Made by a program: the position numbers and the translations under genes
Shown here: positions 7,629 through 56,502 of the stretch, piece after piece
Layout of the letters: each line of letters begins with the position of its first letter
Position numbering within the stretch: position 1 is the stretch's first letter
NCBI RefSeq assembly: GCF_008691045.1
Contig: NZ_VMSO01000015.1
Coordinates: forward strand, 1 to 64,000
Source: Mediterraneibacter catenae
GTDB taxonomy: Bacteria; Bacillota; Clostridia; Lachnospirales; Lachnospiraceae
DNA: 64,000 nt
Direction of reading: 5' to 3'
The notes under the pieces: model-generated
The model's database searches: none
The model's input: only the letters and a program-made list of their open reading frames with translations
What the model was told of the DNA's origin: nothing

Positions 7629-7653
7629 GTGTAAAAAGGACGAGTGAAATATA

Positions 7654-24777: not shown

Positions 24778-25557
24778 TTATATAGTCCCCGCCCTCTGTG
24801 CTCCGGACTCCTGTCCGGTCACGATCACCTGCCGGATTCCTCTTTTCCTAAGCTCCCGGCATATCTCAAGGGCGGTATCTATTCGTCTTTTATCGTCTGC
24901 TTTATTCAAAACGACTGTATATACGGCTGAACCAGGACATCCTTTTCTCCCCGCAGATCTCGCTGCGGCGAGCACTGCAATATCCTCAGCCGTAACACAT
25001 TCGGTTCTTTTCTTATTCAGTAGTTTCTCCGCCAATTCCGAGCGGAATACGGTTTCCTCTATCCTTTTCCCGACACTGTCCAGACCATACACGGACAGGA
25101 CATGCGTCGTCTCCGGCAGGATGACCGGTTCATGGTCTGCAGGCACTTTAAGCGGAAGCCTTTTCGCCCCATCCGCCTCTATGAGCAGGGGAACTTCCCA
25201 CCGCAGGAGTTTCTCAATCTCATGATCGGAAAGCCTCGCAAGCTTCCCGCCGGGCGCAGGCGCTCCAATCCACACCTGACCTGCCTTCTGTAATTGTTCT
25301 CTTATCTTCTCTTCCAACAATCCGGACAGGAACCACTCTCTGTCCTCTTTCATGATATGTGTCGTGGTCGTCACGATCACAGGAATACCCGCGCGGACAT
25401 ACTCATCAGCTAACCGGTGCAGGGTTGTTGTCTTTCCCCCTGCTCCGACCGCCGATACGACCGGGCGCTGTCCCCGGATCCCTTCGGTCTCCAGTTTCAG
25501 CGCCTGTCTTAAGGAGTCTGTCTCACACAGCCTGTCCTCATTGTAAATATAAATCAT
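24778..25557 (-). CDS. yqeC: YqeC, selenium-dependent hydroxylase maturation protein
   Basis: A 259-residue P-loop protein (GAGGKTTTLHRLADEY, about residues 38-53) of the YqeC family, a marker of selenium-dependent molybdenum hydroxylase systems. LIEADGAKRLPLKVP is the family's second conserved segment. It probably helps insert the selenium-containing ligand or cofactor. The start at 25557 (MIYIYNE) is chosen because it lies after the upstream stop at 25586; an upstream in-frame ATG would overlap the hydantoinase gene. The ribosome site (AGGAT) is weak. Confidence 0.85.
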   Translation of the reverse strand: MIYIYNEDRLCETDSLRQALKLETEGIRGQRPVVSAVGAGGKTTTLHRLADEYVRAGIPVIVTTTTHIMKEDREWFLSGLLEEKIREQLQKAGQVWIGAPAPGGKLARLSDHEIEKLLRWEVPLLIEADGAKRLPLKVPADHEPVILPETTHVLSVYGLDSVGKRIEETVFRSELAEKLLNKKRTECVTAEDIAVLAAARSAGRKGCPGSAVYTVVLNKADDKRRIDTALEICRELRKRGIRQVIVTGQESGAQRAGTI

Positions 25558-25585
25558 CTCAGTTGATCCTGAACTGTTATTTCTC

Positions 25586-26953: not shown

Positions 26954-26971
26954 GCCAACTCCCTCTTTCTG

Positions 26972-29965: not shown

Positions 29966-30062
29966 TATCATTTCCTCCTGTTATTATGGCCGGATTTCCT
30001 GTCCGGCAGCCGCTGCGTCGGCACCGTCCGGTATCCGGCCTTATTTCCGATATGCATTTTGT

Positions 30063-31493: not shown

Positions 31494-31581
31494 TTTTATT
31501 CACCCTATATTGCCCCCGGCAGATACATTGCCGGGCCCTTCCTTACTCAAATTATGTCAGCCCTTATGCTGCTTTTGTCTG

Positions 31582-32913
31582 TTAACCGTTGATACGGCCG
31601 GCAAGTTCTTTGGCCGCCTGTCTGCAGTCTGCCATCACTTTAGCCACATCGATCTTCGTCAGTCTCCGGTCTTTCATCAGGATTTCACCGTTTGCCACTG
31701 TAGTTACAACATCATGTCCGGTCACGCCAAACAGAAGATGGCTGTTGATATTGTCCGCAGTAAGCGGTGTGAGCGGATCATATGCGACAATGATTACATC
31801 GCCCGCAGCGCCTTCTTTGAGGACACCAAGTTCCGGGGCAAAGTACCTGCCCGCAATCTTCGCATTGTTCTCAAAAAGCATCTGCGGCACCTCTCCCCAG
31901 GCTGCATTCGGATCACAGAGATGATGCTTGTGGAGAATGTTCGCAACTTTCCATGATTCCATCATGTCATGGGTATACCCGTCTGTTCCAAGGCCGGTGA
32001 GGATTCCTCTGTGCACCAGCTCCATTGTCGGAGGGCATCCGCATGCATTTCCCATATTAGACTCCGGATTGTGAACGACCATCGTGTCTGTTTCCTTAAT
32101 GAGATCCATCTCATGGGAGTTAATATAGATGCAGTGTCCGAGGAGTGTCTTCTCGCCCAGAATACCGTGATCCATCAGACGGTCCACGATCCTTTTCCCG
32201 TAATGCTTCAGGCAGTGGTGCAGATCTTCGATCCCCTCTGCCACATGGATGTGATATCCGACTTCATCCGGCTTGTTTGCAGCGGCAAGTTCCATTGTCT
32301 CATCCGAGATAGTGAACTGTGCGTGCATACCCATCATTCCGGCGATCATTCCGGTATCGTCCTGAAGCGCATGGCGGATGAACTCGGCATTTTCCATAAC
32401 AGACTCTCTTGCCTTGTCCATACCATCCCTGTCAGAAATCTCATAGCAGAGGCAGGAACGGACTCCTGTCTCTTTTGCCGCTTTCTCAATTTCAAAGAGT
32501 GAGCCTCTGATCGAGCCGAAGCTTGCATGATGGTCAAAAATTGTCGTTACACCGTTTCTGATACAGTCGATATAAGTAGCCATAGCGCTTAAATATGTAT
32601 CGTTCAGTGTAAGATTACGGTCAATCGTCCACCACTGTCCGTCCAGGATATCGAGAAATCCCTTCGGGTCATAACCTTTTATGGAAAGGCCTCTTGCAAA
32701 CGAACTGTAAATATGCTCATGTACATTAATAAAGCCGGGCATGATCAGGCCGCCTTTGGCGTCGATGTACTCTGCTTCAGGATATGCATTTTTGATATCC
32801 TCAGTACTGCCCACCTTGCAGATCTTGGTTCCGTCGATAGCAACCGCACCGCCTTCGATCAGCGGACATGCAGCATCTCTTGTGATAACTTTTCCATTAC
32901 CTAAAACCAGCAT
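31582..32913 (-). CDS. ssnA: SsnA-type amidohydrolase
   Basis: A 443-residue metal-dependent aminohydrolase with the amidohydrolase histidines in FINVHEHIYSSFARG, GYHIHVAEG, LLGHCIYINS and the aspartate in GLGTDGYTHD. It is the SsnA family, a constant member of selenium-linked purine clusters, near the guanine/chlorohydrolase deaminases. It is the first gene of the leftward operon, with a promoter at 33039-33011. It may deaminate or open a purine-derived ring; the substrate is not known from sequence. Confidence 0.9.
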   Translation of the reverse strand: MLVLGNGKVITRDAACPLIEGGAVAIDGTKICKVGSTEDIKNAYPEAEYIDAKGGLIMPGFINVHEHIYSSFARGLSIKGYDPKGFLDILDGQWWTIDRNLTLNDTYLSAMATYIDCIRNGVTTIFDHHASFGSIRGSLFEIEKAAKETGVRSCLCYEISDRDGMDKARESVMENAEFIRHALQDDTGMIAGMMGMHAQFTISDETMELAAANKPDEVGYHIHVAEGIEDLHHCLKHYGKRIVDRLMDHGILGEKTLLGHCIYINSHEMDLIKETDTMVVHNPESNMGNACGCPPTMELVHRGILTGLGTDGYTHDMMESWKVANILHKHHLCDPNAAWGEVPQMLFENNAKIAGRYFAPELGVLKEGAAGDVIIVAYDPLTPLTADNINSHLLFGVTGHDVVTTVANGEILMKDRRLTKIDVAKVMADCRQAAKELAGRING

Positions 32914-33010
32914 GTCATTTTCTCCTTTTTATTTATTTTCCACATACTGTCCTCAATGTGCTTTTACATTTATCTGTGCAATTCGCACATTAAGACCTGT
33001 CACTATCTAT

Positions 33011-33039
33011 AGAATACCATTAATATTGTATAAATGCAA
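33011..33039 (-). promoter_or_regulatory. Promoter of the leftward purine operon
   Basis: On the minus strand TTGCAT (33039-33034), 17 bases, TATTCT (33016-33011). The transcript would start near 33004 and read ssnA first. Confidence 0.65.
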
Positions 33040-33045
33040 CATGAA

Positions 33046-33084
33046 TTCTAAATAATTTTTAGAGTACCTAAAAAATTTTTAGAA
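33046..33084. promoter_or_regulatory. Tandem palindromic operators between the divergent purine operons
   Basis: Two AT-rich palindromes, TCTAAATAATTTTTAGA (centre 33055) and CTAAAAAATTTTTAG (centre 33075), lie 20 bases (two helical turns) apart, between the two divergent promoters. A shared regulator, most simply the PAS/HTH protein encoded at 33187, could bind both on one DNA face. Confidence 0.55.
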
Positions 33085-33090
33085 AAAGTA

Positions 33091-33118
33091 TTGACTCTGT
33101 ATTTTTTTATGCTATGAT
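33091..33118 (+). promoter_or_regulatory. Promoter of the rightward purine operon
   Basis: TTGACT (33091-33096), 16 bases, TATGAT (33113-33118), followed by the regulator gene 69 bases on. Confidence 0.65.
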
Positions 33119-33186
33119 GGGTTTAGAGACACACAGCAGACACACTTTTCCTCTCGAAAGAGAGTGAAGAAAAGGCAGGTGAAGTA

Positions 33187-33834
33187 ATGGATCGGAAACT
33201 CGACTTTCTCAAGCAGCTCGCACATGGACTGGCAGCTCAGTTCGGGAGCTCCTGCGAAGTCGTCATTCATGATCTGACAAAAAAAGATCTGGATAAGTCT
33301 ATCGTTTATATCGAAAACGGACACGTATCCAACCGGCATACCGGAGACGGGCCGTCAGGCATCGTCCTCGAGACGCTCAGATCTGATCCGGGAAAGATAA
33401 AAGACAAGCTCGCTTATCTCACAAGAACAGACGACGGCAGGATCTTAAAATCCAGTACACTCTATATTCGCGATGAAAAAGGGAAGATCATTTATATCTT
33501 TTCCATGAATTATGACATCACCTCCCTGCTCGCGGCAGAGAACTCCATACGCGGCCTGATCCAGACAGAACCGGAAAACGATACGGAAACAGACAGTTCT
33601 GCCACACCACAGCGGATCACCCACAATGTAACCGAGCTTCTCGACCTTCTGATCGAGCAGGCAATCGCCCGGGTGGGAAAACCTGTCGCAATGATGAACA
33701 AAGATGACAAAGTAGCTGTGGTACAATACTTAAACAACGCCGGTGCTTTCCTCATCACAAAATCCGGCGACAAGGTCTCTTCCCTCCTCGGGATATCAAA
33801 ATTTACTTTGTATAGTTACATGGACAAAGGGTAA
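33187..33834 (+). CDS. YheO-like PAS/HTH transcriptional regulator
   Basis: A 215-residue regulator. The N-terminal YheO-type PAS domain (about residues 5-118; FGSSCEVVIHDLTKKDLDKS, then IYIFSMNYDIT) probably senses a small molecule. The C-terminal helix-turn-helix (about 160-215) includes VVQYLNNAGAFLITKSGDKV and LGISKFTLYSYMDKG. It is the first gene of the rightward operon, 35 bases before the ammonia-lyase, and sits beside the divergent operators. A pathway-specific, ligand-controlled activator or repressor is likely; the ligand (urate, xanthine or an intermediate) is inference. Confidence 0.87.
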   Translation: MDRKLDFLKQLAHGLAAQFGSSCEVVIHDLTKKDLDKSIVYIENGHVSNRHTGDGPSGIVLETLRSDPGKIKDKLAYLTRTDDGRILKSSTLYIRDEKGKIIYIFSMNYDITSLLAAENSIRGLIQTEPENDTETDSSATPQRITHNVTELLDLLIEQAIARVGKPVAMMNKDDKVAVVQYLNNAGAFLITKSGDKVSSLLGISKFTLYSYMDKG

Positions 33835-33869
33835 GCAACAACATTTCACATATTTAAGGAGGTTCCACA

Positions 33870-35075
33870 ATGGACGCAATCAAATGGGCAGTGAACAAGA
33901 TGCCGAAAACGGAAGATTCCAACCTGAAAGTAATGGGGTTGGACGAAATCAAAAAGGCGCGCGCTTTCCATGAGAGTTTTCCCCAGTACAGTGTCACACC
34001 GCTGGCAAAACTGGATCACATGGCAAAACGCCTCGGACTCGGTGAAGTATATGTAAAAGATGAGTCCTACCGCTTCGGGCTCAACGCTTTTAAAGTGCTC
34101 GGCGGTTCATTCGCTATGGCGCGTTACATAGCAAAGCAGACCGGGAAAGATGTATCCGAGCTGCCATACAATGTCCTCACTTCCGAGAAACTTAAGGAAG
34201 AGTTCGGGCAGGCCACATTCTTCACCGCCACGGACGGTAATCACGGACGCGGTGTCGCATGGGCTGCAAACAAATTAGGACAGAAGTCAGTCGTCCTCAT
34301 GCCGAAAGGAAGCACACAGACGAGACTGAACAACATTCTCGCCGAAGGCGCTGAGGCGACGATCGAAGAATACAACTATGACGAATGTGTCCGCATGGCA
34401 AACGCTATGGCCGAGAAGACAGAAAACGGCGTCATGGTGCAGGATACTGCATGGGACGGATACGAGGAAATTCCGTCATGGATCATGCAGGGATACGGAA
34501 CAATGGCTATGGAAGCGGATGAGCAGCTCCACGACTATGACTGCGAGCGCCCGACACACGTCTTCATTCAGGCAGGCGTGGGATCTCTCGCCGGAGCAGT
34601 CCAGGGATACTTTGCAAACCGCTATCCTGAGAATCCGCCGAAAGTAGTCGTTGTGGAAGCCGAAGCCGCCGCATGTCTCTATAAAGGTGCATGTGCGGGA
34701 GACGGAGATATCCGCATCGTGGACGGTGACATGGTCACGATCATGGCGGGACTCGCCTGCGGAGAGCCGAATACGATTTCCTGGGATATCCTGAAAAATC
34801 ATGTTGATACATTTATCGCATCACCCGACTGGGTGGCTGCAAGGGGCATGCGTATGCTCGCTGCTCCCGTCAAGGGCGATCAGCCGGTAACATCCGGCGA
34901 ATCCGGTGCCGCACCGTTCGGAACACTTGCGTGTATCATGACAATGGATGAGTACAAGCCTCTCAGAGAGCATCTCGGACTGGATGAGAACTCCAAAGTC
35001 CTCCTCTTCTCCACCGAGGGAGACACTGATCCCGAGAGATACGAATCCATAGTCTGGGGCGGGAACGACAGATAA
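33870..35075 (+). CDS. ygeX: 2,3-diaminopropionate ammonia-lyase
   Basis: A 401-residue PLP enzyme (DpaL/YgeX) that converts 2,3-diaminopropionate to pyruvate and two ammonia. The PLP lysine is K75 in NAFKVLGG; FFTATDGNHGRGVAWAANKL is the phosphate-binding and asparagine region, and the glycine loop appears in FIQAGVGSLAGAVQGYF. Length matches the family. AAGGAGG precedes the start. In purine clusters it performs the last carbon-nitrogen cleavage that yields pyruvate. It releases 2-aminoacrylate as an intermediate, which fits the ridA gene further down the same operon. Confidence 0.95.
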   Translation: MDAIKWAVNKMPKTEDSNLKVMGLDEIKKARAFHESFPQYSVTPLAKLDHMAKRLGLGEVYVKDESYRFGLNAFKVLGGSFAMARYIAKQTGKDVSELPYNVLTSEKLKEEFGQATFFTATDGNHGRGVAWAANKLGQKSVVLMPKGSTQTRLNNILAEGAEATIEEYNYDECVRMANAMAEKTENGVMVQDTAWDGYEEIPSWIMQGYGTMAMEADEQLHDYDCERPTHVFIQAGVGSLAGAVQGYFANRYPENPPKVVVVEAEAAACLYKGACAGDGDIRIVDGDMVTIMAGLACGEPNTISWDILKNHVDTFIASPDWVAARGMRMLAAPVKGDQPVTSGESGAAPFGTLACIMTMDEYKPLREHLGLDENSKVLLFSTEGDTDPERYESIVWGGNDR

Positions 35076-35256
35076 ACCGTCTGTTCCATATAAATAAGGA
35101 AACTATTCAACTCTGTCTGTTCAGGCCGTCCGGATCTGCGCCCTCCGCAGTCCGGCGCCTGATGAAACACGTTTTATAATTCAGAGTCACACCGCAAAGG
35201 GTGTGCCACTATGCCGTATAAAGCACGGCAGCGACAAAGAAAGGAGAATGAAAGCT

Positions 35257-36567
35257 ATGGACTTCAACAAAATCAAGGAAGCTGCACAGGGTTATCAGAA
35301 AGACATGACCGCATTTCTTCGCGCTATCGTGAAGAATCCGGGAGAGAGCTGCGATGAGAAAGCTCACATCGACACTATCGCCGCTGAGATGAAGAAACTG
35401 GACTTCGACGAGGTCGTTATCGATCCTCAGGGAAATGTCATCGGTTACATGGGAACAGGCGATAAGATCATCGCTTACGATGCACATATCGACACAGTAG
35501 GTATCGGAAATATCGACAACTGGGACTTCGATCCGTACGAAGGATATGAGAATGACACGGAAATCGGCGGACGCGGCGTATCTGACCAGTGCGGCGGCCT
35601 TGTATCCGCAGTTTACGGCGCAAGGATCATGAAAGACATGGACCTGATCCCGGAAGGATGCAAGATCATGGTTGTCGGAACAGTTCAGGAAGAGGACTGC
35701 GACGGTCTGTGCTGGCAGTACATCATCAACGAGGACAAGATCCGTCCTGAGTTCGTTGTATCCACGGAGCCGACAGACGGCGGTATCTACCGCGGACAGC
35801 GCGGACGTATGGAGATCCGCATCGATGTCAAAGGTGTTTCCTGCCACGGTTCCGCTCCGGAGCGCGGTGACAACGCAATCTACAAGATGGCTGACATCCT
35901 CCAGGATGTACGTGCCCTCAACGAAAATGACGACGCAGACGAGACAGAGATCAAAGGTCTTGTAAAGATGCTGAATCCTAAATACAACCCGGACTGGGAA
36001 GAGGCGCGTTTCCTCGGACGCGGTACCGTAACTGTATCCCAGATCTTCTATACATCACCGAGCCGCTGTGCGGTAGCTGACTCCTGTGCGGTATCACTTG
36101 ACCGCCGCATGACATTCGGCGAGACATGGGAGAGCTGTCTGGACGAGATTCGTGCACTTCCGAGCGTACAGAAATACGGCGACGATGTAGTCGTATCTAT
36201 GTATAACTATGACCGTCCTTCCTACACAGGATGCGTATACGAGATCGAGTGCTACTTCCCGACATGGGCAATCCCGAAAGACCACAAAGTGACAAAAGCG
36301 CTCGAGAAAGCGTACACATCACTCTACGGCGACAAGAGGATCGGCGCGGAGGAAACTCTGGAAATGCGTCAGAGCCGTCCGCTCACAGACAAATGGACAT
36401 TCTCAACAAACGGCGTGTCCATCATGGGAAGAAACGGAATTCCGTGCATCGGATTCGGACCGGGTGCTGAAGCTCAGGCACACGCGCCGAATGAGAAGAC
36501 ATGGAAACAGGACCTTGTAACATGTGCCGCTGTATACGCTGCACTGCCGAACTGCTACTGCGAGTAA
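35257..36567 (+). CDS. ygeY: YgeY-family M20 hydrolase
   Basis: A 436-residue M20/ArgE-type metallohydrolase of the YgeY selenium-linked group. Metal ligands are visible in [12 protein letters not shown], the following ISDQ-like [10 protein letters not shown], and [10 protein letters not shown]; the dimerisation segment [15 protein letters not shown] is typical. It probably removes a carbamoyl, ureido or acyl group from a diaminopropionate derivative. The start at 35257 (MDFNKIKEA) is chosen from family starts, with AAGGAG 10-11 bases upstream; the ATG at 35248 is too near the ribosome site. The 181-base gap before it holds three small hairpins. Confidence 0.9.
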
Positions 36568-36636
36568 CACAAGCTGAACTGTTATAATTTTCAGGAAGTA
36601 TTTTAATTTTATTTATATCAAGGAGGATAAAGAACA

Positions 36637-37830
36637 ATGAAAACATTACAGGACTATATCGATAAGCTGAACGCCCTGAACTTTAAAGATATGTACAACG
36701 GAGACTTTTTCCTGACATGGGAGAAGACAGACGAAGAACTGGAAGCCGTATTCACCGTAGCTGACGCTCTCCGCTTTATGAGAGAGAACAACATTTCCAC
36801 AAAGGTATTCGAGAGCGGTCTCGGAATCTCCCTCTTCCGCGACAACTCCACACGTACCCGCTTCTCCTTTGCATCTGCATGTAACCTGTTAGGTCTTGAG
36901 GTTCAGGATCTGGACGAGGGCAAATCCCAGGTTGCACACGGCGAGACAGTTCGCGAGACAGCAAACATGATCTCCTTCATGGCAGACGTGATCGGTATCC
37001 GCGACGATATGTACATCGGCAAAGGAAATGCTTACATGCATGAAGTTGTTGACGCTGTAACACAGGGAAATAAAGACGGCATCCTCGAACAGAAACCAAC
37101 GCTCGTAAACCTTCAGTGTGACATCGACCACCCGACACAGGCTATGGCTGATATGCTCCACATCATCCACGAGTTCGGCGGTGTCGAAAACCTGAAAGGC
37201 AAAAAGATCGCTATGTCATGGGCTTACTCTCCGTCCTACGGCAAACCGCTCTCCGTTCCGCAGGGAATCATCGGTCTGATGACACGTTTCGGAATGGACG
37301 TTGTGCTTGCTCATCCGGAAGGATACGAGGTATTCCCGGAAGTTGAGGCTGTTGCTGCCGAGAACGCAAAGAAATCCGGCGGTACATTTACAAAGACAAA
37401 TAATATGGCTGAGGCATTCAAAGATGCCGATATCGTATATCCGAAGAGCTGGGCTCCGTTCGCTGCTATGGAGAAACGTACAGAGCTGTACGGAAACGGC
37501 GACTTCGAGGGAATCAAAGAACTGGAGAAAGAACTCCTCGCTCAGAACGCACAGCACAAAGACTGGGCTTGCACAGAGGAACTGATGAAGACGACAAAAG
37601 ACGGAAAAGCGCTCTATATGCACTGTCTGCCGGCCGACATCACAGGCGTAAGCTGTGAGGAAGGCGAGGTTGACGCAAGCGTATTCGACCGTTACAGAGA
37701 TCCGCTCTACAAAGAGGCAAGCTACAAACCGTACATCATCGCGGCTATGATCTTCCTCGCAAAATTCGCAGATCCGGCTGACATTCTCAAGAAACTTGAA
37801 GAAAAAGGCACACCGAGAGTGTTTAAATAA
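36637..37830 (+). CDS. ygeW: YgeW knotted carbamoyltransferase
   Basis: A 397-residue aspartate/ornithine carbamoyltransferase-like protein. The carbamoyl-phosphate site STRTRFSFA is in LFRDNSTRTRFSFA, the second in QCDIDHPTQAMAD-type sequence, and the amino-acid side in YMHCLPAD. It belongs to the YgeW family with unknown natural substrate. In the purine pathway it would run in the phosphorolytic direction, giving carbamoyl phosphate for carbamate kinase (arcC) and a diaminopropionate product. AAGGAGG precedes the start. A structured repeat follows its stop directly. Confidence 0.93.
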   Translation: MKTLQDYIDKLNALNFKDMYNGDFFLTWEKTDEELEAVFTVADALRFMRENNISTKVFESGLGISLFRDNSTRTRFSFASACNLLGLEVQDLDEGKSQVAHGETVRETANMISFMADVIGIRDDMYIGKGNAYMHEVVDAVTQGNKDGILEQKPTLVNLQCDIDHPTQAMADMLHIIHEFGGVENLKGKKIAMSWAYSPSYGKPLSVPQGIIGLMTRFGMDVVLAHPEGYEVFPEVEAVAAENAKKSGGTFTKTNNMAEAFKDADIVYPKSWAPFAAMEKRTELYGNGDFEGIKELEKELLAQNAQHKDWACTEELMKTTKDGKALYMHCLPADITGVSCEEGEVDASVFDRYRDPLYKEASYKPYIIAAMIFLAKFADPADILKKLEEKGTPRVFK

Positions 37831-37987
37831 TAGTTCAGCCATCTGGCGTCAGTCAACAGTTTTATGCTCGCATAAGGATCTGTTGACTGGCAGACAGATG
37901 TGTTGAGCGTCTGGATATGAGCAAAGCAGCGACAACGTCGCAGTAAGCACGTAAGTGCGGCTTTGCGAATGGCGCGGGCTGAACATA
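37829..37987 (+). repeat. MITE-like structured repeat, copy A
   Basis: About 157 bp bounded by ATAGTTCAGC and GGGCTGAAC. It contains a long hairpin (CATCTG...CAGTCAACAG / CTGTTGACTG...CAGATG, 37840-37900, loop with ATGCTCGCAT), then GCGAC-AAC-GTCGC and GCAC-GTAA-GTGC stems. Its last 82 bases (37903-37984) match, at roughly 80 percent by eye, the reverse complement of 53745-53826. It begins immediately after the ygeW stop. Confidence 0.7.
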
Positions 37988-38033
37988 CTGAACAGTTACT
38001 AATCTAAAAGAATCATTAGGAGGTATTTATATC

Positions 38034-38417
38034 ATGTTAAAATATGTAGACACAAAAAACGCACCTGCAGCTATCGGACCATATTCACAGGGAATCGTTC
38101 TGAACGGGATTGCATTCTTCTCAGGACAGATTCCGCTCTCACCGGAGACAGGCGAAGTCGTAGGTGCTGACATCACAGAGCAGGCTGAGCAGGTTATGAA
38201 AAATGTAGGTGCTCTTCTGGAGAGCCAGGGCGCATCTTTCACAGATGTAGTGAAAACAACCTGCTTCCTCGCAGATATGGCTGACTTCGCTGCATTCAAC
38301 GAAGTATACGCTAAATACTTCACAGGCAATCCGGCACGTTCCTGCGTTGCTGTAAAGGCTCTTCCGAAGGGAGTTCTCTGTGAAGTAGAGACAATCGCCG
38401 CTGTAAAAGAAGGCTGA
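38034..38417 (+). CDS. ridA: RidA-family reactive-imine deaminase
   Basis: A 127-residue RidA (YjgF/UK114) protein: [20 protein letters not shown] near the start, and the conserved arginine and glutamate in [21 protein letters not shown] that bind the substrate carboxylate and activate water. It hydrolyses 2-aminoacrylate and other enamines/imines to keto acids and ammonia. The upstream ygeX enzyme makes 2-aminoacrylate, so its job here is probably to speed pyruvate release and protect PLP enzymes. TAGGAGG precedes the start, and arcC follows after 16 bases. Confidence 0.95.
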
Positions 38418-38433
38418 TTCCGGGAGGCAGCTT

Positions 38434-39378
38434 ATGGAAAAGAAAAAACGTATCGTCATTGCCCTGGGCGGAAACGCCCTCGGCAATACTCTGCCGGAAC
38501 AGATGAAAGCCGTTAAGATCACGTCCCGCGCTATCGTGGATCTGATCCAGGAAGGCTGCGAGGTCGTCGTTGCACACGGCAACGGACCCCAGGTGGGCAT
38601 GGTAAATAACGCCATGATCGCACTTACCCACGAAGATCCGCAGCAGCCGAACACACCGCTTTCTGTCTGCGTTGCCATGAGTCAGGCATATATCGGGTAC
38701 GATCTTCAGAATGCACTCCGCGAAGAGCTCTTAAACAGAGGAATCACGGACATTCCGGTAGCGACTATGATCACGCAGGTGCGCGTTGATCCGGATGATC
38801 CGGCATTTGAGCATCCGTCCAAACCGATCGGCCGTTTCATGACAAAAGAACAGGCTGATGTAATGGCAGAGAAATATGATTACATCATGAAGGAAGATGC
38901 AGGCCGCGGTTACCGCCGAGTGGTAGCATCACCAAAGCCGCAAGAAATCATCGAGATCGGAACGATCCGCAATATGGTGGACTCCGGCGATGTTGTCATT
39001 GCCTGCGGAGGCGGCGGTATCCCTGTCACACGTCAGGGTAACCACTTAAAAGGCGCCAGTGCCGTCATCGATAAAGACTTTGCAAGCTGCCTGATGGCAA
39101 AAGAACTGGATGCCGATTTCCTCATCATCCTGACTGCTGTCGAGAAAGCAGCTATCAATTACGGGAAACCGAACGAGAAATGGCTCGGCGACATTACCGT
39201 GGCCGAGGCAAAACAGTACATAGATGAGGGACATTTTGCACCGGGTTCTATGCTCCCCAAAGTGCAGGCGGCTGTTGAATTCGCAGAATCAAAGCCGGGC
39301 AGACAGGCTCTCATCACACTGCTTGAAAAAGCAAAAGACGGAATCCTCGGCAAAACCGGTACAAGGATTCATCTGTAG
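38434..39378 (+). CDS. arcC: Carbamate kinase
   Basis: A 314-residue amino-acid kinase-fold protein: VIALGGNALGNTLPEQ near the start, VVVAHGNGPQVGMV, the long PUA-free inserted segment VDPDDPAFEHPSKPIGRFM typical of carbamate kinases, and CGGGGIPV with KGASAVIDKDFASC for ATP and carbamoyl phosphate. It converts carbamoyl phosphate and ADP to ATP, ammonia and carbon dioxide. As last gene of the rightward operon, it captures energy from the carbamoyl phosphate released by YgeW. Confidence 0.95.
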   Translation: MEKKKRIVIALGGNALGNTLPEQMKAVKITSRAIVDLIQEGCEVVVAHGNGPQVGMVNNAMIALTHEDPQQPNTPLSVCVAMSQAYIGYDLQNALREELLNRGITDIPVATMITQVRVDPDDPAFEHPSKPIGRFMTKEQADVMAEKYDYIMKEDAGRGYRRVVASPKPQEIIEIGTIRNMVDSGDVVIACGGGGIPVTRQGNHLKGASAVIDKDFASCLMAKELDADFLIILTAVEKAAINYGKPNEKWLGDITVAEAKQYIDEGHFAPGSMLPKVQAAVEFAESKPGRQALITLLEKAKDGILGKTGTRIHL

Positions 39379-39553: not shown

Positions 39554-41047
39554 TCAATTTATTTTATCTGTACTTCCCAGTCTCTTCTTCATCGTCTTCT
39601 CCACAGCATTCAGGATATTCTCATACCCTGTACATCTGCACAGATGTCCGGAGAGCAGATTCCTGAGCTCGTCTCTTGTATACTCTTTTCCGCTCTCAAG
39701 GATTTCAACGGCGCTCATGATGACGCCCGGCGTACAGAATCCACACTGCACTGCCGCCTCATCGATAAATGCCTGCTGGATATCAGAGAGTTCGCCGTCC
39801 GGTCCCATCAGTCCTTCCAGAGTGCGGATCTCTTTTCCGTCCGCCCACACTGCAAGATAGATGCAGGAGTTAAAGCACTCACCGTCAATGATCACATTGC
39901 AGGCGCCGCACTCTCCCACCTCGCAGCCTTTCTTGACACTGGTCAGAGAATAATCATTGCGAAGCATATCGGTGAGTGAAGCTCTTACATCGACCATCGT
40001 CTCACGCTCCACACCGTTGATACGGCAGCGCACCAGTTTATACTGCTTTCCGCTCTCGGAATCGGTCATGATCGTATGGCGGGATGCTCCTGATGCCGCT
40101 CCCGGCTGTTCTTTCTTCTCCGCGGGCTCGACCGTCTCACTGTCCGAAGCCGCCGGATTTTGTTCCGCAGTCATGCCGCCGGCCCTTCTGACCGCCTCAC
40201 GCAAAGCTCTTTTACAAAGAACTTTTGAGATATGTTCCCTGAACGCCTTGCTGGCACGCCAGCTGTCGCGGGGCGTAACGTCCTCGAGCACAGTATCGCC
40301 GAGCTTCTCAATGCTCTCCTCCGTAACTTCAAGACCTCTCCCGGCCGCTTCTGCATGTGCTGCACGCATGGGAACCGGACCTGCAACTCCGTATGCGATA
40401 CGAATATCTGTAAATGTTTTCTTGTCATCTGAAAGTTTTACATTTACAGAGCATCCCAATGTAGCTATATCCATTGCATTTCTCATTGCATACTTAATGT
40501 AATGGCCGGCATAACCCTCATAGGATTCTCTCGGAATCAGGATCGCTGTCTGGATTTCGCCGGGTCTTATATCTACTTTACCTGCCTTTATGTAAAAATC
40601 CCTGATCGGAAGCACGCGCACGCCCTCCGGCCCTGTCAGCTCGATCCGTGCGTCCCACGCAAACAGAGTGGACGCCGAGTCTGCCGAAGTCACGCCATTA
40701 CATGTATTACCGCCGATCGTACCGATGTTTCGGATCTGGGGACCGCCTACCATGTCCACCGCTTCGCCGAGCACACCTATATGCTTCTGAATGAGCGGAT
40801 CTTTCGTGATATGGGAGAAGCTCGTCAACGAGCCGATCCGGATAGTTCCGTCCTCATCCATCGTCACGCCGCGCAATTCGTCTAATCCATATATGCTCAC
40901 AAGCTCAACGCCGGCACGCTTCCCCTCTCTCATCTGGACGAGAACGTCGCTGCCGCCGGCAATAACCTGCGCTTCCGGATGCTCCTGAAGCAGCCGGATC
41001 GCATCCTCCACACTTTTCGCCTCATACAGTGCCTTCATATCATACAT
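39554..41047 (-). CDS. Xanthine dehydrogenase FAD subunit fused to 2Fe-2S subunit
   Basis: A 497-residue fusion. Residues 1 to about 285 form a CoxM/XdhB-type FAD-binding domain (VIAGGSDVLVQM and RNIGTIGGNTCNG are the FAD motifs). A low-complexity linker (about 300-345) leads to an XdhC-type domain with two 2Fe-2S clusters (CEVGECGACNVI, CGFCTPGVIM, CRCTGYENIL). It completes an enzyme with xdhA next to it, whose stop it overlaps by 8 bases. In E. coli these parts are separate genes (xdhB, xdhC). Expression is under the guanine riboswitch three genes upstream. Confidence 0.9.
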   Translation of the reverse strand: MYDMKALYEAKSVEDAIRLLQEHPEAQVIAGGSDVLVQMREGKRAGVELVSIYGLDELRGVTMDEDGTIRIGSLTSFSHITKDPLIQKHIGVLGEAVDMVGGPQIRNIGTIGGNTCNGVTSADSASTLFAWDARIELTGPEGVRVLPIRDFYIKAGKVDIRPGEIQTAILIPRESYEGYAGHYIKYAMRNAMDIATLGCSVNVKLSDDKKTFTDIRIAYGVAGPVPMRAAHAEAAGRGLEVTEESIEKLGDTVLEDVTPRDSWRASKAFREHISKVLCKRALREAVRRAGGMTAEQNPAASDSETVEPAEKKEQPGAASGASRHTIMTDSESGKQYKLVRCRINGVERETMVDVRASLTDMLRNDYSLTSVKKGCEVGECGACNVIIDGECFNSCIYLAVWADGKEIRTLEGLMGPDGELSDIQQAFIDEAAVQCGFCTPGVIMSAVEILESGKEYTRDELRNLLSGHLCRCTGYENILNAVEKTMKKRLGSTDKIN

Positions 41048-43391
41048 AATCTTTCACCTCATTTCCGCCGTGATCAGATCGTAGCAGTCCTGCTTTTTGG
41101 AACTCGTCGAACAGCAGATGCGGTCTCATCGGTATCTCATTTAACGCAACGCCCGTCGCCTGCAGTATTGCATTGCGGATCGCCGGAGCAGGGGAACATG
41201 CCGGCGGCTCCCCAAGTGCTTTCGTTCCGTATGCACTGGTCGGCTCATAGTTCTCGACAAATGCCGCGTGAAGATCCGGATGGTCCATAAATGTCGAGAG
41301 TTTATAATCCAGAAGATTATTGTTCAGTGGTCTTCCGGTCTTCTCATCATAGAGCAGCTTCTCTGAGAGTGCATAACCGATCGCCATACTCATGCCGCCA
41401 TGCACCTGCGCCTCAGCAAGCGCCGGATTGATCAGGCGCCCACAGTCGTGGACGTTCAGGATATCCGTCACCTCTGCCCTGCATCCCGGAATATCTACCT
41501 CTACCTCCACAAAAGTGCACCCGAACGAATATGCATTATTCTTAATCTGATAGCTGCTCTCCGCCGTGAGATGTCCGTTATTTGTCAGGCTGTACAGTTT
41601 CTCTGTCGCCAGTTCGCCAAGAGACATAAGCACCTCTCCGTCCGTCGTTCTGACAATATATCCGTTTACAATGTCAAGATTTTCTTTCATCTGGCGTGTC
41701 AGCTCGTGTGCAGTCTCTATGATTTTCTCTTTCAAAAGCTCCCCGGTCTGACGGATAGAGAATCCCGCCATGTAAGTCTGTCTGGAGGCATACGCGCCGG
41801 TTCCGAACGGTGTCACATCCGTATCCTGAGTGGAAACGACATGCACCATCTCGAACGGAATCCCCACCGTCTCCGCAGCCATCTGCGCGAACGCCGTATC
41901 CGCGCCCTGTCCGATCTCAGTCTCTCCTACCTGCACCTGTATGCTTCCGTCCTGATTGAGCACCATACGGCACGCGGATGTCTCAAGGGAGATGGGCCAC
42001 ACACCAGTGTTATACCAGAAAACAGACATTCCGACGCCACGGCGGACATCTCCTGTCTGATGGGAATATTTTTCAAGTCGCCTGTCGTAGTCGAATTCCT
42101 TTCTTCCCTTCTCCATACATTCCCGGAATGTATCATAATAGTTTACATTTTTCGAGAAACCGTCTTTAAATCCCTTCGGCATGACATTTTTCATACGGAA
42201 CTCATACGGCGGTACTCCGATGGCACGCGCCACATCGTCCGTATGGCTCTCCATAGCAAACATGGCCTGCGGGATGCCATAGCCTCTCATGGCTCCGGAA
42301 GCAGCCTTGTTGGTAAATACTGTATATGTGTCTGCCTCAATATTCGGACACGGATAAAGCTGCGGAAAACATCCCATTCCTTTTGCTGCAATGCTGTGTC
42401 CGTGTGACGCATATCCGCCCTGATCCGAGAAACTCTCAAATTTCCGGGCCGCATATGTGCCATCTGGTCTTACATACGAGATAATATGGAAATGGATCGC
42501 ATGTCGTACTCTTGTAGATGCGAATGTCTCCTCCCTGGAAATATCCATTTTGACCGTTCTTCCGCCTACCACCGTAGTCAGATAAGCACAGAGCGGTTCG
42601 TAGAGGACGTCCTGCTTATTTCCGAATCCACCGCCAATGTACGGCTTGATGATACGGACTTTCCCCCACGGTACCCCCAGCGCCTGGCCGACAACACGCC
42701 TGCAGATATGAGGGATCTGCGTCGACGTAACAACCACGATCCGCCCCTGCTCCATATAGGCATAGCAGACGGGATTCTCTATGTGACAGTGCTGCACAGT
42801 CGGAGTCTGATACCATCCCTCTACCTTTGTAAGTCCGGGTTCCTTTATGGCGTTCTCATAATCGCCGTTCCGGATCGACGTGTGTTTCAGGACATTATTG
42901 GGATATTTCTCGTGTATCTGCGGGGCATCGTCCTCCATCGCCTTATGTACGTCAAGGACAAACGGCAGTTCCTCATACTCCACTTTCAGTGCCCGGAGCG
43001 CCTGAGAAGCCGCCACTTCATTTTCCGCTATCACGGCTGCCACATCGTCACCGTAATATCTGACATGCCGCTCTAAGAGCAGCCGGTCTGCCACATCCTG
43101 ATGTTCCTCTTCCGTTGACCACGGATGTCCGGCCGTCGGGAAATAATACTCCGGCACGTCAAAGCATGTGACAATTTTGACCACACCTGGAATCTTCTCT
43201 GCCCCGGACGTGTCGATAGACTTCACATACCCGTGAGCGATCGTGGAATGGAGCACCTTCGCCACATATGCATTTCTGTCACACAGATCTTCCGTATACT
43301 TAGCACGTCCGGTCACCTTTTCAAATGCATCCACACGTTTCACACTTTTACCGATTACATGTTCTTTCCTGACAGTATCTTTTTCTGCCAT
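41040..43391 (-). CDS. xdhA: Xanthine dehydrogenase molybdenum subunit
   Basis: A 783-residue molybdopterin-binding subunit: the a/b hammerhead domain (about residues 20-125) and Mo-cofactor domains with YIGGGFGNKQD, ASGAMRGYGIPQ (substrate-pocket arginine), GETEIGQGADTAFAQ and the catalytic glutamate in YGTKALGEPPACSP. It oxidises a purine carbon, using the FAD/2Fe-2S fusion encoded next as electron path. It lies between guaD and that fusion, so the operon reads guanine to xanthine to urate-level chemistry. This is the second Mo hydroxylase of the locus, distinct from the FAD-less enzyme at 20138. Confidence 0.93.
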   Translation of the reverse strand: MAEKDTVRKEHVIGKSVKRVDAFEKVTGRAKYTEDLCDRNAYVAKVLHSTIAHGYVKSIDTSGAEKIPGVVKIVTCFDVPEYYFPTAGHPWSTEEEHQDVADRLLLERHVRYYGDDVAAVIAENEVAASQALRALKVEYEELPFVLDVHKAMEDDAPQIHEKYPNNVLKHTSIRNGDYENAIKEPGLTKVEGWYQTPTVQHCHIENPVCYAYMEQGRIVVVTSTQIPHICRRVVGQALGVPWGKVRIIKPYIGGGFGNKQDVLYEPLCAYLTTVVGGRTVKMDISREETFASTRVRHAIHFHIISYVRPDGTYAARKFESFSDQGGYASHGHSIAAKGMGCFPQLYPCPNIEADTYTVFTNKAASGAMRGYGIPQAMFAMESHTDDVARAIGVPPYEFRMKNVMPKGFKDGFSKNVNYYDTFRECMEKGRKEFDYDRRLEKYSHQTGDVRRGVGMSVFWYNTGVWPISLETSACRMVLNQDGSIQVQVGETEIGQGADTAFAQMAAETVGIPFEMVHVVSTQDTDVTPFGTGAYASRQTYMAGFSIRQTGELLKEKIIETAHELTRQMKENLDIVNGYIVRTTDGEVLMSLGELATEKLYSLTNNGHLTAESSYQIKNNAYSFGCTFVEVEVDIPGCRAEVTDILNVHDCGRLINPALAEAQVHGGMSMAIGYALSEKLLYDEKTGRPLNNNLLDYKLSTFMDHPDLHAAFVENYEPTSAYGTKALGEPPACSPAPAIRNAILQATGVALNEIPMRPHLLFDEFQKAGLLRSDHGGNEVKDYV

Positions 43392-43466: not shown

Positions 43467-44750
43467 TCAGTTAAGATCAATCTCCTGCCCTTTGACATAT
43501 TTTGCACGTATCTCCCGGTCGTCTGCCAGATAGATCATACGCTCCAGCCTGCTCCGGATGTCCAGCGGCTGCGGATGCTTTAATCTGCTGTCATCCAGTA
43601 CGACCGCATCAAACTCGTATCCCGGTTCAAAACTTCCAACCTTACCGAAGAACTCCCCGCCTCCTTTCGTCGCCATATAGAAGACTTCCTCTGCCGTAAG
43701 CCCCTCCAGACTGTCATCCTGCAGTCTCCATCTCAGTTTTGACGACTGCACGGCATGCGCCATAGCCCGGAAGAGATTCTCTGTGGAGCCGCCCGCCACA
43801 TCACTGCCGATACCGACATGCAGCCCTTCTTCCAGGAACTTTCTCACCGGCGCGATTCCCGAGGATACATTCATATTTGACTCCGGACAGTGAGCGATGA
43901 ACACGCCGTTCTCTTTCATCCGGGCAATCTCGCTGTCATCACTGTATACACAGTGTGCCATAACAGTCCGGCAGTCTGCGCCAAATAATCCAAATCTGTC
44001 ATATACGTCCCCGTAGAATTCTGACCAGGGACAGAGTTCTTTCACCCACGCGATCTCTCCCGGATTTTCCGACAGATGAGACTGTACCGGAAGATCATAA
44101 CGCATCTGGAGTTTTTTCAGCTCTTCCATCAGTTCATCCGTACAGCTCGGCGTAAACCGCGGTGTCAGGATCGGATGTGTGTTCTGATATTTCCGATGGT
44201 TTACATCCTTGATCCACTCCAATGTCTCATCTGCCGACTCCTGTGTCTCTTCACAAATATATTCCGGACAGTTCCTGTCCATATTTACTTTGCCGACATA
44301 GGTATCCAGTCCGGTCTTTTCAAGCATATCCATAAGAAGCAGTGTAGCAGGGCGGTGGACCGTACCGAAAATACATGCTCGTGTCGTGGCGCTTCTTCTT
44401 AAGTTCTCCACAAAAATGCCGTATGCCTTTTTCGCGTAATCCACGGACTCGAACTTCGCCTCCTCCGGAAATGTATTCACCTCCAGCCACTCTAAAAGTT
44501 CCATATCCATCCCCAATCCCCTGTAGGAATACTGCGGTGCATGGATATGCAGATCCACAAGTCCCGGTATGATCAGACAGTCACCGTAATCCCGGATCGG
44601 ATTGCCTCCCAGCCTGAATGGAAGTGTCTGATATATTCCGTCAACTTTACCGTTTCTACAGACAAGATATCCATGTTCATATATAGCTAATTCTTTCTCA
44701 TTTCTGCTGTATACGATATTTCCTTTTAATATAAAAATAGGTTCACTCAT
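43467..44750 (-). CDS. guaD: Guanine deaminase
   Basis: A 427-residue amidohydrolase: DLHIHAPQYSYRGLGMD near residue 67 with metal histidines, LLEWLEVNTFPEEAKF (guanine-deaminase signature), VQSHLSENPGEI, MAHCVYS and the aspartate in GIGSDVAGG. It converts guanine to xanthine and ammonia. AGGAGAGGAG lies before the ATG at 44750. It is the first gene of the riboswitch-controlled operon and feeds xdhA downstream. Confidence 0.93.
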   Translation of the reverse strand: MSEPIFILKGNIVYSRNEKELAIYEHGYLVCRNGKVDGIYQTLPFRLGGNPIRDYGDCLIIPGLVDLHIHAPQYSYRGLGMDMELLEWLEVNTFPEEAKFESVDYAKKAYGIFVENLRRSATTRACIFGTVHRPATLLLMDMLEKTGLDTYVGKVNMDRNCPEYICEETQESADETLEWIKDVNHRKYQNTHPILTPRFTPSCTDELMEELKKLQMRYDLPVQSHLSENPGEIAWVKELCPWSEFYGDVYDRFGLFGADCRTVMAHCVYSDDSEIARMKENGVFIAHCPESNMNVSSGIAPVRKFLEEGLHVGIGSDVAGGSTENLFRAMAHAVQSSKLRWRLQDDSLEGLTAEEVFYMATKGGGEFFGKVGSFEPGYEFDAVVLDDSRLKHPQPLDIRSRLERMIYLADDREIRAKYVKGQEIDLN

Positions 44751-44777
44751 CAGTCTAATCTCCTCTCCTGTTCAAAT

Positions 44778-44880
44778 AAATATACCGGTTAACGCACTCT
44801 TACGCCCGGCATACTTATAGTCAGCCGTTTCCGGCGGCTGGTAGAGACGTTCAACCGATTATGAACCTATATAAGTATGC
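44778..44880 (-). promoter_or_regulatory. Guanine-class purine riboswitch ahead of guaD
   Basis: On the minus strand an 11-bp P1 (GCATACTTATA / TATAAGTATGC, 44880-44870 with 44819-44809) closes a three-way junction: P2 with loop TAATCGG, J2/3 GTCTCTACC, P3 AGCCG/CGGCT with loop CCGGAAA, and J3/1 GACTA. These match the purine riboswitch fold. The C in GACTA is the discriminator of guanine-type (versus adenine-type) aptamers. Departures: J2/3 has C where U is usual, and J1/2 is TAG-like. Downstream, AAGTATGCCGG (44816-44806) can pair with CCGGTATATTT (44788-44778); this stem shares P1's 3' strand and is followed by ATTTATTTG. Confidence 0.85.
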
Positions 44881-44900
44881 GATATTTTCTCTCTGTAAAT

Positions 44901-44929
44901 ATGGTAACACTGAAGAAAAAAAGTGTCAA
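44901..44929 (-). promoter_or_regulatory. Promoter of the guaD-xdhA-xdhBC operon
   Basis: On the minus strand TTGACA (44929-44924), 17 bases, TACCAT (44906-44901), about 20 bases before the riboswitch P1. Confidence 0.75.
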
Positions 44930-44969
44930 TCGCCTCTTTTCCCTCTATTTAAACTATCGTTCCACAGCC

Positions 44970-45968
44970 TTATACTTTCTCCAACATCACTTCCACAACT
45001 CCACCGCAGACCATTCCCTCATCTTCAGCCTCTCCGGCTGTCATGTCTACTCTGCAGATCTGGAAATCCGGCGCTTTCGTGCGCATCATGAGAAGTGCTT
45101 TCTGTATGATCTCACTCTCTATGCAGCCTCCGCCAATCGTATCGATCGTTCTGCCGTCCTCGATGATGAGCATTTTTGTCCCCACTCCCCGGGGTGCAGA
45201 TCCCTTACGGGAAATGATCGTCGCAAGCACTTTCTGCAGTTCCGCAGGATCTTCTCCACTGTTTCCTGCATTCAGGATACAGGAGATGATTTCCTCAGAA
45301 TAGCCGCCCGTCTTGCCTCCGTCGCTCTTGTTCTGTGTACTCTTCACCTGTATGATCTCAGCCATAACGGACACTGCGATCTCTTCGGGCGTCTCGGCGC
45401 CGATCTTAAGGCCGATCGGAGTGTGTACCGCATCCAGCAGATCCCGGCTGATACCTTTTTCTTCAAGCTGATCTTTCACTATGGCAACTCTGCGCCTGCT
45501 ACCCATCATCCCCACATAGGCAGAGCGCTTCTGCAGAATAGCTTCGAGACACTCCGAGTCATAGCGGTGCCCCCTCGTCACGATAATGAACCAGGAGTCC
45601 GAGTCACCTCTGATCTGAGCAAGGCCTGATGCAAATGGCTCACATATCACCCGGTCTGCCCCTGCTGCCCTTGCATTGTCCGCAAATTTCGGGCGGTCTT
45701 CTATGACCGTCACAACGAATCCAAGCATTTTCCCCATCCGGATGATCGGCATTGACACATGCCCGGCTCCGCATACGATCAGTTTCGGTGTACGGCCGAT
45801 ACGCTCACAAAATACATCTGGAAATCCGGCAGTTCTATCTGCTTCTGCCGGTCTGGCATGGAGTAAATATTTCTCTCCGGCATGTTCTCCCGACAGGACC
45901 GTCTCAGCCCATATATCGCCCTCTGACGTTTCCAAAGCTTCTTTTAGTTCTGTGTAAAATCTGTTCAT
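44970..45968 (-). CDS. XdhC/CoxI-family molybdenum hydroxylase maturation factor
   Basis: A 332-residue protein of the XdhC/CoxI family, which binds Mo cofactor and assists sulfuration and insertion into xanthine-dehydrogenase-like enzymes. Here the Rossmann part comes first (LIVCGAGHVSMPIIRMGKML, YVGMMGSRRRV, about residues 60-210) and the XdhC/CoxI part second (about 225-332; ATIISRKGSAPRGVGTKMLI, GGGCIESEI, MVCGGVVEVMLE), the reverse of the E. coli order. It precedes the riboswitch operon in the same direction, with a gap of 220 bases to guaD. Confidence 0.9.
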   Translation of the reverse strand: MNRFYTELKEALETSEGDIWAETVLSGEHAGEKYLLHARPAEADRTAGFPDVFCERIGRTPKLIVCGAGHVSMPIIRMGKMLGFVVTVIEDRPKFADNARAAGADRVICEPFASGLAQIRGDSDSWFIIVTRGHRYDSECLEAILQKRSAYVGMMGSRRRVAIVKDQLEEKGISRDLLDAVHTPIGLKIGAETPEEIAVSVMAEIIQVKSTQNKSDGGKTGGYSEEIISCILNAGNSGEDPAELQKVLATIISRKGSAPRGVGTKMLIIEDGRTIDTIGGGCIESEIIQKALLMMRTKAPDFQICRVDMTAGEAEDEGMVCGGVVEVMLEKV

Positions 45969-49810: not shown

Positions 49811-49832
49811 GTACACGTACAAAAACAGAATA

Positions 49833-49990
49833 CATCATTCGGTAGGTGAGGTTACCACAGGGATTGGGATATACCCGAAGATTGCTGCCGCGAGATCGTG
49901 GAGACACGATAAGATGGTCAGCAGGCTGTGTCGTGAAGGTGCAGCCTAATGCAATTGATATGCCCTGTGATACTAAAGCTTGAACGATGC
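49833..49990 (+). promoter_or_regulatory. M-box (ykoK) magnesium riboswitch
   Basis: The leader has the M-box hallmarks in order: GGTAGGTGAGG, GATATACCCGAAGATTGCTGCC, a variable hairpin, GGTCAGCAGGC, GGTGCAGCCTAATGCA, GATATGCCCTGTGATACTAAAGC, closed by CATCATTC / GAACGATG (49833-49840 with 49982-49989). It senses magnesium and lies ahead of mgtE. High magnesium should favour the terminator at 50026. Confidence 0.93.
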
Positions 49991-50025
49991 ATCCCGGTCA
50001 TGTTTATTTTCATGGGTTTATTATG

Positions 50026-56174: not shown

Positions 56175-56502
56175 GAAAAAGAAAACCCTGAGCATCATAT
56201 GCCCAGGGCGAATCTTTCATCCGTGTTACCACCTGAATTCAGAGACAAATCTCTGCTCTTAGCCGGTACGGGAATTCCTCTTTCTCACCGCTTTCGCTGC
56301 GCTGTGTCTGTCTTCCGATACCGTTTCCCTATAACGTGGGAATACGTTGGAGCCTACTGGTACTCGTCCGGTACGTTCAGTCCACTGCTCGAAGGCTACT
56401 TCCATAATCCCGTCACGAAGATTTACACCTGCCATCTTCTCTCTGTGCATCTGAAGATTATGTACTCCTCCTTGTCACTGCATTTCTGATAGTTAAAAAT
56501 TT
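56175..56502 (-). promoter_or_regulatory. T-box leader of ilvBN
   Basis: The minus-strand leader has stem I sequence with AGAGAGAAG and a GGTG motif, the T-box AGGTGGTAACACGG (56234-56221), and a terminator CCCTG...CAGGG (56208-56186) followed by TTTTCTTTTT. Uncharged tRNA would base-pair with the T-box and prevent termination. For ilvBN a branched-chain tRNA (Ile, Val or Leu) is expected; I could not assign the specifier codon safely. Confidence 0.88.

Follow-up and report, generated by a model that had tools for sequence, protein, structure and literature searches.

The window analyzed here, a stretch of 64,000 nucleotides from Mediterraneibacter catenae (GCF_008691045.1, contig NZ_VMSO01000015.1, positions 1 to 64,000), carries a guanine-type aptamer in the leader of guaD, the gene for guanine deaminase. 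guaD, xdhA, and a fused xdhB-xdhC gene lie downstream of the aptamer, on the same strand and close together, within a purine and urate breakdown cluster, as an initial annotation of the DNA had recognized in calling the operon catabolic. The leader probably acts as a guanine-class riboswitch that turns the translation of guaD, and probably of the operon too, ON when a purine is bound. The elements of the locus are as follows (P, helix; J, junction; L, loop).

44809-44880, minus strand: guanine-type aptamer (RF00167, 55.8 bits; helix reading)
44880-44870/44819-44809, minus strand: aptamer P1
44866-44862/44853-44849, minus strand: aptamer P2
44840-44835/44827-44822, minus strand: aptamer P3
44869 and 44820, minus strand: pocket bases U22 and C74
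44901-44929, minus strand: promoter-like site TTGACA-17-TACCAT, TG ahead of its second hexamer (by consensus alone, 10 of 12 matches)
44768-44760, minus strand: Shine-Dalgarno sequence GGAGAGGAG of guaD
43467-44750, minus strand: guaD, guanine deaminase, 427 aa (best-scoring family TIGR02967, 367.3 bits, just below the cut-off of 375.4)
41040-43391, minus strand: xdhA, xanthine dehydrogenase molybdenum subunit (NF043082, 1259.4 bits, cut-off 780)
39554-41047, minus strand: xdhB-xdhC fusion, joining the FAD and iron-sulfur subunits in a single protein (NF043083, 445.9 bits, and NF043084, 253 bits, both above the cut-off)

The Rfam Purine family (RF00167) matches 44894-44798 (-) over the full model (1-102) at 55.8 bits, where the gathering score is 37, a covariance-model result that bears out the guanine-class aptamer of the initial annotation, and this is the single purine aptamer match across the 3.18 Mb genome. 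All four ligand-contact bases of the guanine-I pocket (U22, U47, U51, and C74) are present. The junctions read GUCUCUAC for J2/3 and AC for J3/1. Neither the one-nucleotide J2-3 insertion by which passages of PMC9295807 define guanine-II, nor the U51G change and the J2-3 and J3-1 insertions by which they define xanthine-II, occurs in the window aptamer. A base census covered 119 pattern-read aptamers (86 guaD-linked and 33 other, not all from distinct genomes), the pattern itself demanding U22 and U51. Part of it was drawn from a family-wide set of 140 loci, of which 46 without a pattern-read aptamer and one without a reading frame were left out, both here and in the start-pairing comparison below, where 93 purine-riboswitch loci were used. 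U47 and C74 were invariant (119 of 119); nucleotide 24 was G, U, or A and nucleotide 48 was U or C with three exceptions, and both positions varied in the guaD-linked group as well as in the other. The initial annotation had correctly noticed G24 and C48, but because both positions are variable they give no sign of a new ligand, and an altered ligand choice read from them was rejected on the position-wise counts. By its sequence, the aptamer is classed as guanine-I; its ligand would be guanine or a close purine, and the sequence leaves room for xanthine or hypoxanthine.

The leader is also predicted to adopt an alternative fold in which an anti-P1 hairpin and three further helices (T1 to T3) replace most of the aptamer.

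44776-44818, minus strand: anti-P1 hairpin, takes the P1 3' strand (44818-44806 pairs with 44788-44776, 13 bp; inner 44805-44801 pairs with 44796-44792)
44861-44870, minus strand: T1 5' strand (A21-U30: end of P1, U22, P2 5' strand), pairs with 44746-44737, 10 bp
44737-44746, minus strand: T1 3' strand, guaD codons 2-5 (+5 to +14), from the fold; synonymous sites of codons 2-6 frozen
44853-44859, minus strand: T2 5' strand (L2 and the first P2 3' bases, AUCGGUU), pairs with 44755-44749, 7 bp; compensatory changes at nucleotides 34/-1
44749-44755, minus strand: T2 3' strand, spacer and start codon A and U, from fold and alignment
44843-44848, minus strand: T3 5' strand (J2/3, GUCUCU, with U47, C48, and U51), pairs with 44763-44758, 6 bp
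44758-44768, minus strand: Shine-Dalgarno sequence and T3 3' strand (44763-44758), from the fold

The leader folds at -54.9 kcal/mol, far below the -33.7 +/- 3.7 that 200 dinucleotide shuffles give (z -5.8). In the unconstrained fold of the window leader, P3 is kept and the anti-P1 hairpin is formed. Codons 2-5 are then paired to A21-U30, the spacer and the A and U of the start codon to L2, and the Shine-Dalgarno sequence to J2/3. The initial annotation had seen the competing stem as 11 bp (44816-44806/44788-44778); the stem is real and overlaps the P1 3' strand, though it extends to 13 bp. The T-rich run placed behind it did not survive: TATATTTAT is itself the 3' arm of the anti-P1 hairpin, paired with the P1 3' strand, since this arm resembles the P1 5' strand, and TTGAACAGGAGAGG comes after. 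A terminator scan of 44600-45100 returned no sites and no U tract follows the hairpin in the window, on which grounds an intrinsic terminator was rejected as the platform here.

Guanine deaminase leaders related to that of the window were compared with it. Leader extraction failed for 26 of 81 (21 without a visible aptamer, L071 cut by a contig end, L111 damaged, and L116-L118 missed by the pattern; L numbers are our handles for loci). Among the nearest of them, 37 leaders, window included, have the start at most 76 nucleotides from C74 and are called short below. P1 3' nucleotides are taken by a downstream arm in all 37 (3 to 12 nucleotides, minimum-energy fold), and the anti-P1 segment folds at z <= -2 in 26 of them. 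A tract of five or more U after the aptamer is found in one short leader, there inside a stem, compared with 17 of the 18 longer-spacing leaders. Anti-P1 arms fit their own leaders better than swapped arms (32 distinct leaders; 0 of 20000 permutations as good), a count that, like the permutation counts below, overstates independence because the leaders are related and so speaks less firmly for the proposed switch.

Complementarity between the aptamer and the gene start was measured by pairing the aptamer strand U22-C53 as a duplex to its own start region (-22 to +12), with 426 other gene starts from the window and related loci as the null. The window duplex reaches -25.2 kcal/mol against -11.4 +/- 3.0 for the null; none of the 426 other starts is as good, and only 8 of 5000 shuffles of its own start region are. 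Every short leader pairs in this way (37 of 37, z -2.53 to -6.07). Among the long leaders, L090 (z -2.49) and L120 (z -3.29) do so, and the remaining 16 range from -1.21 to +2.43. guaD starts without an aptamer (17 distinct), set against the window aptamer strand, give a mean z of +0.15, a control weakened in that several of these starts are tblastn match starts and may be a few codons off. In the family-wide set, the guaD leaders of the window's clade again stand out, and other genes lie near zero or above, except L211, L053, and L188; L051 (z -3.31) and L187 (z -2.07) are exceptions among long guaD leaders. The extra leader L222 fits the clamp pattern, and L221 and L240 are U-tract leaders. 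L002, which had been given a wrong downstream start, is the same leader as L128 (z -5.49).

Fourteen pairs of T1 and T2 were counted across 34 aligned, distinct leaders (476 cells), leaving out T3, whose position differs between leaders. Standard pairs fill 95.4% of the cells, against 21-45% when the strands are slid by one to three columns, and two-sided changes occur in 8 cells, a number reached in 0 of 500 shuffles. Nucleotide 34 in L2 and position -1 are paired in all 34 leaders (CG 30, AU 2, UA 1, UG 1); the guaD tree separates the AU rows (L095 and L097) from the UA row (L128), which points to double changes that arose independently at least twice. In addition, each aptamer pairs with its own start better than with swapped starts by 1.34 kcal/mol (40 distinct leaders; 0 of 20000 permutations as good), and an advantage of 0.78 kcal/mol persists after removal of the seven leaders with L2 variants (3 of 20000 permutations).

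The coding side of T1 is frozen as well. Synonymous codon identity is 1.00 at guaD codons 2 to 6 in 37 sequences, and none of the 51 codons from 10 to 60 reaches that value (codons 10-20 average 0.58, codons 21-60 average 0.49). At the same loci, codons 2-6 score 0.66 in xdhA (n=17), 0.77 in xdhBC (n=32), and 0.73 in the XdhC accessory gene (n=21). The residues themselves do vary (residue 2 N/Y/S, residue 3 E/G, residue 4 S/P, residue 5 I/V), and the first base of codon 5 is A or G, either of which pairs with U22. A steric effect of the anti-P1 hairpin alone, lying beside the Shine-Dalgarno sequence, was also considered and fails to explain these codons.

Opening the whole start (-18 to +12) of the window costs 17.9 kcal/mol in the free fold and 5.1 kcal/mol when the aptamer is constrained. 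The 37 short leaders average 15.8 free and 4.3 constrained, the free cost being higher in all 37, compared with 6.1 and 5.1 in the 18 longer leaders, where the free cost is higher in 14. Start codon unpairedness, averaged over 41 leaders, rises from 0.36 to 0.46 under the constraint.

Based on these pairings, a mechanism can be proposed. The two folds have only P3 in common, and P1, P2, the loop-loop contact, and J2/3 would all be consumed in the alternative fold. Without ligand, the P1 3' strand would enter the anti-P1 hairpin, freeing the strand from A21 and U22 through P2 and L2 to J2/3, which would then clamp codons 2-5 (T1, 10 bp), the start codon and spacer (T2, 7 bp), and the Shine-Dalgarno sequence (T3, 6 bp). 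Bound ligand would hold P1, P2, J2/3, and the L2-L3 contact in place, the full anti-P1 hairpin and T1-T3 would be barred, and the ribosome could start; an aptamer locked by ligand while being transcribed would thus leave the start unclamped and translation ON. Computation shows the aptamer, the two folds and that they exclude each other, and an alternative pairing that is conserved and co-varies. We infer that the switch works in the ON direction in cells, that the choice falls during transcription, and that the effect extends to xdhA and xdhBC. The ON logic, a sensible one for guanine breakdown, is supported, and with it that part of the initial annotation, which had proposed a guanine ON switch through a terminator: the aptamer is exclusive with a conserved fold that buries the start, even though the terminator has no support here. 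The comparison of orthologous guaD leaders points to a clamp on the start site instead of a terminator in the window. On a more specific level, the ligand-binding strand of the aptamer likely serves as the antisense of the ribosome-binding site, start codon, and codons 2-5, with L2 and guaD codon choice having co-evolved; the clade would then use the clamp in place of the terminator platform of other Lachnospiraceae guaD leaders, so that guanine activates its own breakdown.

Several results weigh against this proposal. The guaD start codon in the window becomes less unpaired when the aptamer is constrained (0.34 to 0.11), lying in a local hairpin. The Shine-Dalgarno sequence of the window opens from 0.26 to 0.89, but this measure was given no weight because its mean goes up whichever the leader type (from 0.29 to 0.66 over 41 leaders and from 0.37 to 0.62 over 14 long ones); it was dropped as proof for being non-discriminating, and the opening cost of the whole start was used instead. 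Holding the aptamer in place costs about 15 kcal/mol relative to the predicted OFF fold, so the ligand might not win at equilibrium and a choice during transcription must be assumed. As for the co-variation, only two pairs carry two-sided change, which is matched in 88 of 500 shuffles, T1 shows none, and pairs are broken at nucleotides 35/-2 in 6, 36/-3 in 4, and 37/-4 in 12 of the 34 leaders. Finally, five distant short-spacing guaD leaders lack the start pairing (z -0.69 for L152, +1.02 for L157, +1.66 for L164, +1.54 for L192, and -1.01 for L048), two of which, L152 and L164, have U-tract hairpins in its place; L213 lacks it too, with a mis-called start. The clamp is therefore a trait of the window's relatives and not of every short guaD leader.

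How the switch might otherwise act must be weighed against the translational ON reading. Transcriptional ON control, in which the anti-P1 hairpin is an intrinsic terminator prevented by a ligand-stabilized P1, as in the pbuE adenine riboswitch, is unlikely. The hairpin does occupy the P1 3' strand, the same hairpin is followed by AUUUUUUU in Faecalicatena faecalis L090, and most longer guaD leaders have U tracts; in the window, however, no U tract follows the hairpin and 44600-45100 holds no terminator-like site, the one tract among the short leaders lies within a stem, and the gene-start pairing and frozen codons would be left unexplained. Control at both levels is compatible with translational ON: RNA left untranslated would be ended by Rho or another factor or would decay, so that the switch also controls xdhA and xdhBC mRNA. 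The close, single-strand arrangement of the operon favors this, but nothing in the sequence is specific for dual control, and it is a tentative addition. The reverse direction, in which bound ligand lowers expression, is very unlikely. Guanine riboswitches commonly reduce expression, as stated in passages of PMC9295807 and PMC11477304, and the window start codon does close under the aptamer constraint; set against this are the drop in opening cost of the whole start, the opening of the Shine-Dalgarno sequence, and the want of any antiterminator/terminator pair in the terminator scan of 44600-45100 or the leader fold, and an OFF switch would be the wrong logic for guanine breakdown.

The identity of the ligand and the function of the pairing can be questioned as well. 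An aptamer altered by G24 and C48 toward xanthine or urate would suit downstream genes that oxidize xanthine, and genes of this type are where PMC9295807 places xanthine-II, a related variant class, yet the variation of both bases across aptamers and the lack of the xanthine-II hallmarks make it highly improbable. Equally doubtful is an accident, in which the aptamer and the protein start, each conserved, happen to be complementary without function. The motif UGAACCU, part of the complement, also occurs in the riboswitch-less guaD of L086, and the unchanged T1 and the five distant leaders fit chance. Against it, residues 2-5 differ while the pairing bases stay fixed, compensatory changes link L2 and the spacer, and the complementarity is missing from the aptamer-less loci and nearly all long leaders.

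Beyond the window, the purine riboswitch family was found in 32 of 58 genomes of the genus, with guaD directly downstream in 27 of the 30 loci fetched, and most of the named relatives, taken from the best 80 of 341, belong to Mediterraneibacter or elsewhere in the Lachnospiraceae. Platform labels cluster on the guaD tree, with 10 label changes against a shuffled mean of 36.9. Of 25 leaders chosen for folding, several have a U-tract hairpin whose 5' arm is the aptamer 3' half, made up of P3 together with the P1 3' strand, an ON arrangement by design (L008, L014, L054, L152, L160, L164, L166, and L176); the genes behind them are guaD or encode an amidohydrolase or a FAD-dependent oxidoreductase. 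Since these hairpins are built from the aptamer 3' half, the ON design seems common for purine-breakdown genes in the family, and the platform seems to have been exchanged between terminator and start clamp. A ligand-controlled terminator looks like the design of other guaD leaders, such as L090 and the longer ones.

In the F. faecalis guaD leader (L090/L182), a weaker start pairing is combined with a U7 tract behind the anti-P1 hairpin, so that this leader is possibly an intermediate between the two ON platforms. The FAD-dependent oxidoreductase gene with an MNQTNFDV start shows complementarity of the P2 5' strand and L2 across its start codon (z -3.57 in L211 and -2.44 in L188), and in L188 the gene start has a match to an insertion in L2. 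That the clamp has been put to use again there is only suggestive, because L188 has a U-tract hairpin too and L243 is weak at about z -0.5. In L053, an NCS2 permease leader, the aptamer strand is complementary to a start 296 nucleotides downstream (z -3.47). A second guaD copy in one genome (L111:4876-4947) has a damaged aptamer (UAUC for UAUA before P2, J2/3 altered) and keeps the start complement.

Around guaD-xdh, one strand carries ygeW, ygeX, ygeY, arcC, and a Rid-family gene; the opposite strand carries a dihydropyrimidinase/hyuA-like gene, ygfK, an NCS2 xanthine-permease relative, ssnA, and yqeB. Genes for the reductive degradation of urate (ygfK, ssnA, hyuA-like, ygeW, ygeX, ygeY, arcC, and yqeB) lie within 23360-39378 of the window, adjoining guaD-xdh, and many of the neighbors are components of the reductive urate pathway in the portions of PMC12507026 that describe it. 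A block surrounding the promoter, TTGACA...GTGTTACCATA...TTACATAGA-like, is kept across many species (many of L064-L081; window 44929-44895) and might hold an operator. Elsewhere in the window, a T-box leader (56201-56487, minus strand, 117.2 bits) and an M-box magnesium riboswitch (49831-49998, plus strand, 88.6 bits) score well over the cut-off, and matches to RF02862 sRNA_1300 (7408-7629, plus strand, 49.5 bits, cut-off 48.8) and RF02913 pemK RNA (10277-10357, plus strand, 49 bits, cut-off 34.8) were also found.

In textbooks, the guanine riboswitch is the switch that turns purine uptake and synthesis OFF. The canonical guanine aptamer of the guaD leader appears to act through translation to activate the breakdown of guanine, its sensing core doubling as an anti-ribosome-binding-site strand. 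If true, riboswitch selection would reach into the coding sequence, at the frozen synonymous sites of codons 2-6, and guanine sensing would be linked to the first steps feeding urate metabolism in gut bacteria. Related leaders with two ON platforms, a terminator and a start-site clamp, and one with both would allow the exchange of expression platforms to be studied. Judged by title and abstract opening, the searches made within an open-access library yielded no guaD-linked or start-clamping guanine riboswitch, and their listings gave no case in which the P2/L2/J2-3 strand of a guanine aptamer pairs off the gene start and the codons next to it.

The initial annotation was correct that an ON response would be opposite to most known guanine riboswitches; all four of Clostridioides difficile are OFF switches in the part of PMC11477304 that treats them. 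Such responses were nevertheless predicted earlier, as passages of PMC9295807 relate, for guanine-II in Paenibacillus and for xanthine-II on purine-breakdown genes, some xanthine-II examples having terminator stems that overlap the aptamer. Both variant classes share the three-way junction and the predicted ON response with the window, whereas their junction insertions, and U51G in xanthine-II, are absent from its aptamer.

The Bacillus subtilis xpt riboswitch (guanine-I, RF00167) has the same aptamer fold and the contact bases U22, U47, U51, and C74. In the pbuE-type terminator platform, also ON, a downstream hairpin likewise draws on the P1 3' strand; the hairpin followed by a U tract that marks this type does not occur in the window, and F. 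faecalis L090 has one. xpt is a transcriptional OFF switch in the passages of PMC10907184 that cover it, and the window is predicted to be a translational ON switch on guanine breakdown. Closer to the window in its output is the Vibrio vulnificus add adenine riboswitch, likewise translational ON, in which, as far as PMC5847336 sets it out, the P1 3' strand is the switch strand and the Shine-Dalgarno sequence and start are buried without ligand. By prediction and comparison, the window also buries both in a ligand-free fold exclusive with the aptamer. In add, they lie in the P4 domain, in which one helix uses the P1 3' strand (PMC5847336); in the window, the burying domain is not built with that strand, and A21 to U51, the P2/L2/J2-3 strand, buries them together with codons 2-5, the ligand base being C74 and not U74. 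The direct-occlusion "unblocking" proposed for guanidine-II similarly has aptamer strands hold the ribosome-binding site until the ligand frees it, according to a passage of PMC10907184. Its aptamer is a different one, and the window pairing reaches codons 2-5 and replaces P1 and P2. ON purine riboswitches being known already, the new part would be this translational ON variant of the expression platform on a guanine-I aptamer.
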